From positions 1-39,823 of the forward strand of contig NZ_JYJG01000155.1 in the NCBI RefSeq assembly GCF_000955955.1: a stretch of DNA of 39,823 nucleotides, read 5' to 3'. This document shows positions 20,514 to 23,737 of this stretch, one piece after another. The stretch comes from Lentzea aerocolonigenes (GTDB taxonomy: Bacteria > Actinomycetota > Actinomycetes > Mycobacteriales > Pseudonocardiaceae). A program made the position numbers and the translations under genes. The notes under the pieces are model-generated. The model saw only the letters and a list, made by a program, of their open reading frames with translations, did not search any database and was not told where the DNA came from. How positions within the stretch are numbered: position 1 is the stretch's first letter; each line of letters begins with the position of its first letter.

Positions 20514-22762
<2,249 letters not shown>

Positions 22763-22764
<2 letters not shown>

Positions 22765-22929
22765 GCGCTGTGACCGCCGACCTTCACCGCGTCTTTCGGC
22801 GCTCAGCAGGACGCCTCGCGGCACCGACCCCCGCCCCCCATATGCCCGATATGGGGGGCGGGGGTCGGCACCGCGATGCGCCCGTCTGCCCGTCGAAAGA
22901 CGGGGCAAAGGCCGACGGTCACAGCGCTT
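22763..22929. terminator. 167-bp imperfect palindrome between convergent stops; probable bidirectional terminator
   Basis: Two 81-base arms (22763-22843 and 22849-22929) are inverted repeats around a five-base centre (GCCCG). By hand alignment 67 of 81 positions pair, with no gaps. The inner 20 bases, running from CCGACCCCCGCC to CATAT, are perfect, as are the outer 14 (AAGCGCTGTGACCG). The arms begin at the hsaB stop codon and overlap the methyltransferase stop codon. In RNA from either strand this folds into a very long GC-rich hairpin, which fits a two-way terminator. A mobile-element remnant is the alternative. Confidence 0.7.
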
Positions 22930-23737
22930 GCCCGGTGATCTGCCAGCAGGCGGCCGGAATCCGCACCTCGTCGCCGTGCACGAACTCGTCGAACGCGCCG
23001 CGGACCTCGCTGATGATCCGCGGCCGGTCGGCCTCCTGCGCTGCCTTGAGCGCACGGGAGATCGGCCCGAGGTTGCTGAGGTACGGCACGAGCAGTTCCT
23101 CGGGCATGGTGCAAACACGGTCCACCGGCTCGATGACGATCCCGCTCCAGCCGCTCTGCTCGAAGAGTTCGCGCGTTCTGTCGGCGTCAGCGAGCGAGAA
23201 CGGTCCCGGTCCGCTGGGATCTGGCGGCGGTGTGTCCGCCAGGAACGGCGCGGAGGCTCTCTGCGCGGTCGTCATGAACGTGTTCTCCTCGGCCGACCGC
23301 CAGGTGATGAAGCACAGCTCACCGCCGGGCGTGGTGGCTCGCAGCAGATTCCGGAACGCGGCAGCGGGGTCGTCGAAGAACATGACCCCGAACCGCGACA
23401 CGACCAGGTCGAACGTCTCGTCGAAGGTGTGGACCTGCGCGTCGCCGAGCACGAACCGGACTTTGCCGCGCTGCGCGGCTCCGGCGATCATGGTCCGGGA
23501 GATGTCGAGACCGACGCACTCCGGACCGTCGCCGAGTGCGTCCGCGATCGCCCTGGTGACCGCGCCCGTGCCGCACCCGACGTCGAGCACCCGATCCCGC
23601 GGACGCTCGAGCGCTTTCTGGGCGAGCAGCTCCTCGAACGGCCGGAGCACCAGGTCGACGACCTGCTGCGCGTTCGCCCAGCCCTCGCCCGCGGCGTTCC
23701 ACCACTCGGCCTGCTCGCTGTTGACCTCAGATGTCAT
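22919..23737 (-). CDS. Class I SAM-dependent methyltransferase
   Basis: This 272-aa protein has motif I VLDVGCGTGAVTRAIAD (residues about 50-66), then an acidic motif II in GLDISRTM, LGDAQVHTFDETFDLVVSRFGVMFF, and LRATTPGGELCFITW. The UbiE/COQ5-like family methylates small molecules, and the substrate cannot be told. It is divergent from the MerR regulator gene across a SoxR-box-like dyad and is probably its target. It converges with hsaB at the long palindrome. It does not belong to any known steroid step, so I treat it as part of a short insert between the KstR and KstR2 regulons. Confidence 0.9.
   Translation of the reverse strand: MTSEVNSEQAEWWNAAGEGWANAQQVVDLVLRPFEELLAQKALERPRDRVLDVGCGTGAVTRAIADALGDGPECVGLDISRTMIAGAAQRGKVRFVLGDAQVHTFDETFDLVVSRFGVMFFDDPAAAFRNLLRATTPGGELCFITWRSAEENTFMTTAQRASAPFLADTPPPDPSGPGPFSLADADRTRELFEQSGWSGIVIEPVDRVCTMPEELLVPYLSNLGPISRALKAAQEADRPRIISEVRGAFDEFVHGDEVRIPAACWQITGQAL

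Follow-up and report, generated by a model that had tools for sequence, protein, structure and literature searches.

A dispersed palindromic repeat, probably a MITE of the IS630/Tc1-mariner type, at the convergent hsaB/methyltransferase junction of Lentzea aerocolonigenes

The 167-bp palindrome between hsaB and a convergent methyltransferase gene of Lentzea aerocolonigenes is best explained, with a probability that we put at roughly 0.8, as a non-autonomous mobile palindrome, i.e. a MITE of the IS630/Tc1-mariner type inserted at the TA of a CTAG-like site in the tail-to-tail junction of the two genes. What sequence comparison can be said to establish is that i) copies are dispersed, ii) both empty and filled sites exist, iii) the ends carry TA and are nested in stop codons, iv) these ends are held in common with an IS630 transposon of another genus, and v) the arms covary, with wobbles mostly on one strand. 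A striking palindrome is thus accounted for as one copy of a repeat family for which no description was found in the literature searched (most subscription papers lay outside the scope of the search).

Geometry and fold of the palindrome

The window, i.e. the whole stretch of 39,823 nt that was analysed (contig NZ_JYJG01000155.1), contains the following features at and around the palindrome.

22763..22929: palindrome; strong strand minus, on which the mismatches are mostly G.U (arm comparison, fold and covariance model R1)
22763-22843: left arm, 81 nt
22844..22848: five-base centre GCCCG, the apical loop
22849-22929: right arm, 81 nt
22762..22763: left TA target dinucleotide, within the hsaB stop codon (from the family ends and the comparison of occupied and empty sites)
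22928..22929: right target dinucleotide, decayed, TT in the window and TC in G004, G006 and G021 (sequences compared by eye)
22765..22927: element proper; at both ends 11 of the terminal 12 nt equal the terminal repeat of the IS630-type transposon L316
22801..22891, minus: core; internal loops conserved, GGUGCC/GGUGCC wobbles in tandem
22820..22869, minus: tip, the inner 50 nt, resembling the G005 copy over the orthologues
22195..22764, plus: hsaB (NCBIfam NF045630, E 9.8e-84), the TAA stop of which is the left edge of the element
22919..23737, minus: class I methyltransferase (Pfam PF08241, E 3.5e-19), with its stop and last codons within the right arm

A recount confirmed the geometry given in the earlier note, namely 81-base arms with Watson-Crick pairs at 67 of 81 positions around a five-base centre. 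The 14 mismatches are confined to 22777-22823, leaving the outer 14 and inner 20 pairs perfect, which bears out the earlier description of central mismatches between perfect arm ends; read on the plus strand, 7 of them are A.C (and hence G.U on the minus strand), 1 is G.T and 6 are of other types. When both RNA strands of 22755-22935 were folded, as the earlier note had proposed, the plus strand gave -139.3 kcal/mol (z -14.0) and the minus strand -156.9 kcal/mol (z -16.2), and none of 200 shuffles folded as well on either strand, so that a chance palindrome was ruled out. Model R1 matched 22762-22930 with 149.2 bits on the minus strand and 100.5 bits on the plus strand, scores that are not independent of the model since the window copy is among its 67 input rows. 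The two G residues of the apical loop on the strong strand are invariant across this 67-row alignment.

The hsaB stop codon TAA occupies 22762-22764, and the methyltransferase stop codon TGA (22921-22919 on the minus strand) is inside the right arm, which also codes for the last two residues (AL) of this protein and part of the preceding codon. A search of both strands of 22500-23200 for hairpins with a trailing T tract gave no site, and a Rho-independent T-tract terminator was rejected on this ground. The two-way terminator, RNase-processed mRNA end and cruciform site suggested in the earlier note would be conjectural roles for the hairpin. A known structured RNA was likewise rejected, since Rfam 15 gave no match at the gathering score in the window and nothing above threshold over 13 loci, where only sub-threshold matches to microRNA-type hairpins appeared. 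A 19-nt inverted repeat (89%, 4-nt spacer) is present within the hsaB coding sequence at 22505-22546.

The junction in other genomes of the genus

The hsaB gene was present in all 24 genus genomes, and the methyltransferase gene faces it in 23. The element occurs at this junction in 4 genomes (the own genome G000, G004, G006 and G021) and is absent from it in the other 20, of which 19 have the same convergent gene pair; in these 19 relatives the methyltransferase match ends at most 13 nt from the end of the hsaB match. In element-free G017, the one such relative in which the methyltransferase reading frame was traced, hsaB ends with ...GAGC TGA C GCGG, and the methyltransferase ends with ...VTASAPL*, running on into hsaB. 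The empty site of G017 reads GAGC-TG-ACGCGGTGACC, and the filled site of G004 reads GAGC-TA-[element]-TC-GCGCCGTGACC. By this comparison, the window element itself furnishes both current stop codons at its edges. The palindrome had been described as filling a gap between convergent stop codons; the stops are indeed convergent, but they did not pre-exist, as the element supplies both.

It had also been proposed that the palindrome is left over from an inverted duplication brought in by a methyltransferase insert. We found no evidence in support of this, and three observations contradict it: the methyltransferase gene is beside hsaB in 23 of 24 genomes and the element in only 4; 19 of these gene pairs are free of the palindrome; and copies matching the arms are dispersed elsewhere. 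This origin is refuted by the empty sites, and we regard its probability as negligible.

In a whole-length tree of the copies, which is weakly supported (55 of 95 inner branches open), those of G004, G006 and G021 form a clade and the window copy is placed elsewhere. The outer arms of the window copy are 90-91% like those of the G004, G006 and G021 copies; its inner 50 nt instead resemble a G005 copy from a different site (94%) more than the two full-length orthologues (62-68%). The outer arms are equally near (91%) to the G005 copy, and they have in common with the three orthologues a few markers missing from it. We read the window copy as probably the same old insertion with its tip exchanged; alternatively, it may be a second insertion at the same site.

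A dispersed repeat family

When the palindrome was used as a BLAST query against the own genome (10.25 Mb in 648 contigs), 44 matches had E <= 10 and 20 of these, in 16 places, had E <= 0.0102; further full palindromes as well as internally deleted forms are among them. Matches at E <= 1e-6 were found in all 24 genus genomes, 1 to 42 in each, a single palindrome being able to match on both strands. The search for copies of the arms suggested in the earlier note thus revealed a mobile family. The exact core motif occurs in at least 113 stretches of named genomes, and all of the 80 matches listed are from Lentzea; a further locus with this motif (L229) is from Saccharothrix luteola. Copies with the same sequence and the same flanks are present both in the genus genomes and in named Lentzea records (e.g. 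L275 of G001 and L175), which identifies the genus as Lentzea. With model R1, matches at E <= 1e-3 were detected in 27 of 150 genomes and 13 of 46 genera of the family, and at E <= 1e-6 in 10 of 246 genomes across the class, these being the own genome, 8 genomes of one genus of family f20 and one of family f12. Plasmids and phages were also searched; neither gave a match, and copies in them were rejected.

The element is 163-171 nt long, matches in further genera included, and of the 101 copies measured in L118-L230, 36 span precisely 167 nt from CTAG to CTAG; since the L118-L230 copies were picked by the exact core motif, core conservation among them is partly by construction. From 114 core hits, 101 copies were kept (both ends scored >=9, length <=172), of which 91 had genes called on both sides (10 were dropped as edge) and 66 were full length. 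The alignment A2 consists of 64 of these 66 full-length copies plus the window copy, L100 and L094. Since several frames have similar readings in other genera, we considered whether the core there codes for protein, and abandoned the idea: the neighbouring genes commonly end at the element, and which frames are open varies between copies.

Several further observations concern single groups of copies. In G309, a genome of another genus, five loci (L317, L318, L319, L332 and L333) hold a 197-nt variant, one arm of which contains an additional small hairpin; some f20 copies, for example L299-L301, are comparable in that one arm carries additional sequence. At L153/L214 and L123/L211, different element lineages occupy one insertion site in two species, which suggests that either the same CTAG was hit more than once or gene conversion replaced the resident copy. 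In the own genome (L035-L064), a contig end lies within about 105 nt of the element end at 20 of 30 loci; at 17 of these it falls within the element and at 3 immediately beyond it. Palindromes and their neighbours thus appear to break the draft assembly, a point of practical relevance. A second repeated end, CTAG followed by TAGTGCTTTGTYGGGTCAGCAAGAACC, was found at 19 places of the own genome (L250-L268, e.g. G000:C100:6296 and C266:24265); CTAG precedes it in 19 of 19 loci, and these are mostly at contig ends, some adjoining a palindrome. It is probably the end of another CTAG-inserting IS collapsed in the assembly.

Ends, target site and gene context

The family ends read YTA/GTG...CAC/TAR, usually within CTAG and often exactly in the stop codons of the flanking genes. 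Among 83 well-scored copies, TA is present at the left end in 66 and at the right end in 67, and the next base outwards is C at the left end (74 copies) and G at the right end (73 copies), counts that are partly by construction since the ends were located by motifs starting with CTAG. A TA at both ends is, from sequence alone, compatible with a duplicated TA as well as with a carried one. Nine G309 copies and L295 all span CTAG to CTAG. Different ends (CTAGGGC..., CCTGTC..., YAGGTC...) were seen elsewhere in f20 and in other genera, so it is unlikely that one transposase serves all copies.

Of the 91 copies with both neighbours called (by a GC-position script rather than from annotation), 45 are between convergent, 36 between tandem and 10 between divergent genes. 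Both genes stop in the terminal CTAG in 18 of the 45 convergent copies, and the upstream gene does so in 14 of 21 and 6 of 15 tandem copies. Within 898 kb of element-centred loci, only 32 of 217 CTAG not at an element were inside genes.

The convergent share of the copies (45/91) exceeds that of other neighbouring gene pairs at the same loci (96/602). This excess, together with the high stability of the hairpin on both strands, would fit a bidirectional terminator or mRNA 3'-end stabiliser selected by the host at convergent genes and spread by its usefulness. We consider this explanation unlikely for several reasons. Where no element was detected, called stop codons in CTAG were convergent in 39/73 cases (a set that may include undetected short derivatives), as large a share as among the copies in convergent and tandem contexts (45/81), so that CTAG targeting and tolerance suffice to account for the convergent excess. 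Moreover, T tracts are missing around the window copy (see above), the junction is without the element in 20 of 24 genomes, and between tandem genes transcription shows no preference for the strong strand (15/36 copies; 6/11 in G309). Pneumococcal mobile repeats are likewise enriched between convergent genes, which the available text of the source attributes to tolerance (PMC3049150).

Relationship to IS630-type transposons

G309 holds at least 22 copies, 165 nt long, in which both ends are present. At locus L316 of this genome, the same ends lie 1245 bp apart and enclose an ORF with DDE_3 (PF13358, E 1.2e-7) and HTH domains. When L316 was compared with the two ends of one G309 palindrome, 28 and 29 of 33 terminal bases were equal; the window ends agree with L316 at 11 of the first 12 bases and at 18 and 20 of 30 bases. 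The transposase reading in L316:1093-2382 appears to shift frame near its 3' end (429-aa and overlapping 235-aa frames).

The IS630 elements L237 and L232 of the own genome are inserted in CTAG with TA repeats in a C-TA-GTG arrangement, and have other ends. No IS630 with the ends of the palindrome was found in the own genome, where 2 of 3 places with DDE_3 at E <= 1e-8 show clear terminal repeats that differ from those of the palindrome; this cut would miss the G309 transposase (1.2e-7), and the assembly is in 648 contigs. G005, with 30 element matches, gave no DDE_3 match at E <= 1e-8. The IS630-family element ISY100 inserts into TA and duplicates it, according to the available text of PMC2170065, which also cites a paper on the preference of IS630 for TA in 5'-CTAG-3'.

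The element is short (163-171 nt), non-coding and present in many dispersed copies in 24 of 24 genus genomes; it has terminal repeats in common with an autonomous transposon, in G309; TA at both ends and empty sites are seen in the family, the right repeat of the window copy having decayed to TT; and its target is TA, preferably in CTAG, as expected of IS630/Tc1-mariner. By these defining features, we classify the element on sequence grounds as a MITE of the IS630/Tc1-mariner type.

Wobble pairs favour one strand

Without any alignment, we counted 2243 Watson-Crick, 401 A.C, 5 G.T and 267 other oppositions over the 81 positions of 36 copies, each 167 nt long and read on the core strand. For 36 other copies of the genus, obtained from BLAST or the model, an arm-against-arm alignment in which every mismatch is scored alike gave 346 G.U, 39 A.C and 308 other mismatches on the strong strand, with G.U exceeding A.C in 36 of 36. 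The deletion derivatives L017, L095, L128 and L171 were left out of this count, as were L287 (about 7 G.U to 4 A.C on the model strand) and L294 (7 to 3 in locus orientation). The 12 copies from other genera of the family have 135 G.U and 6 A.C, again with G.U in excess in each; the 22 G309 copies have 208 G.U versus 48 A.C, and G.U exceeds A.C in 9 of 9 loci of L295-L303 on the model-chosen strand. Choosing the strand by the covariance model or the GGTGCC motif is partly circular, but if the mixture were 1:1, picking the better strand is not expected to yield 135 to 6. As the copies share ancestry, the counts are not independent events, and the agreement across genera is a stronger argument for the strand signature than the raw counts. 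The RNAalifold consensus has 65 pairs, 32 of them with two-sided changes, several through G.U intermediates. Covariation and one-strand wobbles are thus both present, as expected of a structured RNA; single-stranded DNA would look alike.

The signature showed no visible dependence on the direction of neighbouring genes (59 copies, four contexts). This indifference makes it more likely that the signature is tied to propagation of the element, or to its own RNA, than to host 3' ends. Deamination bias as the source of the asymmetry was dropped because changes of the A-U to G-U type are also seen (positions 19 and 23). Since mutation would be strand-neutral and copies lie in both gene orientations, it seems that one folded strand, as RNA or single-stranded DNA, is selected or needed for propagation.

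Changes between related copies are less uniform. In seemingly vertical pairs (G004/G006 at hsaB and L073/L152), Watson-Crick pairs changed to G.U 8 times versus 3 times to A.C, and in G004/G006 alone 3 times versus 3. Over 15 same-site pairs the changes were 43 to 2, but several of these pairs hold different lineages, 4 are without substitution and L089 and L152 are one and the same copy, so that this ratio is not clean in-place evolution. The suggestion in the earlier note that the pairing is actively conserved is supported for one strand of the element family (346:39, with covariation); at this locus, where G004/G006 gave 3:3, such conservation would be no more than a possibility.

The one-strand hairpin signature, the conserved internal loops and the apical GG could also be expected of a single-stranded-DNA element of the REP/RAYT or IS200/IS605 kind, the folded strand of which is read by a Y1 transposase. 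At E <= 1e-5, however, Y1_Tnp (PF01797) was matched in only 10 of the 24 genus genomes; the 14 without it include the own genome, on which ground a RAYT-type REP was rejected, and the copy-rich G003, G013 and G015. Ends flanked by TA, which also bound a DDE transposon, suit IS630 instead, and we regard this alternative as very unlikely.

A neutral palindrome maintained by template switching between arms and gene conversion between copies would explain the two-sided Watson-Crick changes between near neighbours (78 cells) and the mosaic structure of the window copy, with a tip unlike that of its orthologues and outer arms 90-91% alike. Strand-blind repair, however, predicts equal numbers of G.U and A.C, contrary to the 346:39 and 135:6 observed and to the 186 to 31 among one-sided changes between nearest neighbours. 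As the sole explanation it is disfavoured, and we give it very little weight.

Proposed mechanism and implications

For the preferred IS630/Tc1-mariner-type MITE, we propose that i) a transposase of this type, acting in trans, would move the gene-less palindrome, ii) the insertion would have occurred at TA where hsaB and the methyltransferase gene met tail to tail, iii) across the family, TAG stops are rebuilt on either side by the element's first G and last C, which makes CTAG sites safe for landing and thereby accounts for the convergent stop-codon position, iv) at this locus the stops are now TAA (hsaB) and TGA just inside the element (methyltransferase), and v) the folded minus strand would be selected, as RNA or single-stranded DNA, for propagation of the element. 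Conceivably, the hairpin might also block transcripts or exonucleases coming from either side of the junction.

Transposition of double-stranded DNA offers no reason for a one-strand signature. A tentative reading, to which we give somewhat less than even odds, is that the element may be a mobile structured-RNA module, with a hairpin core of about 100 nt found in at least two actinomycete families and carried within the ends of different CTAG-inserting transposons. Selection would then act on the strong-strand transcript rather than on a host 3' end, and the G.U pairs would make the palindrome near-perfect as RNA and imperfect, hence replicable, as DNA.

The family illustrates the life of a mobile element in gene-dense genomes, with insertion at CTAG, a sequence scarce within genes, and restoration of the split stop codon. 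The one-strand wobbles make it testable whether palindromic MITEs propagate or persist via a folded RNA or single strand and not via DNA alone. The element is set apart by a core common to families under different ends, by these wobbles and by frequent nesting in stop codons.

Comparison with known systems

Like the element, the IS630/Tc1-mariner transposons L316, L237, L232 and ISY100 use a TA target, within CTAG for the first three, the ends of which also begin with GTG; L316 and L237 carry a DDE_3 transposase. The element differs from them in being gene-less, and by eye none of its core was seen in L316. REP/BIME sequences associated with RAYT are also palindromes, and REPs are recognised as single-stranded DNA (available text of PMC3733652); unlike the element, they are 20-40 bp long with GTAG or CGTC tags, and the own genome gave no match to a Y1 transposase. 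BOX and SPRITE of pneumococcus resemble the element in being dispersed repeats with predicted RNA structure, SPRITE also being convergent-enriched (15 of 30 in a table), whereas BOX is modular and SPRITE is terminator-like with short AAAA/TTTT ends, the available text of PMC3049150 containing no mention of TA in CTAG for them.

The nearest described case that we found, judging from the available text of the same source, is the 107-bp RUP of Streptococcus pneumoniae (PMC3049150). Both are short non-coding repeats with IS630-like ends, a tight predicted RNA fold and over-representation between convergent genes. As to differences, the term 'wobble' is absent from the RUP source text. RUP is AT-rich and belongs to pneumococcus and its near relatives, whereas the present element is GC-rich, forms a near-complete palindrome of 163-171 nt and, unlike RUP, keeps its core under different ends in at least two actinomycete families.
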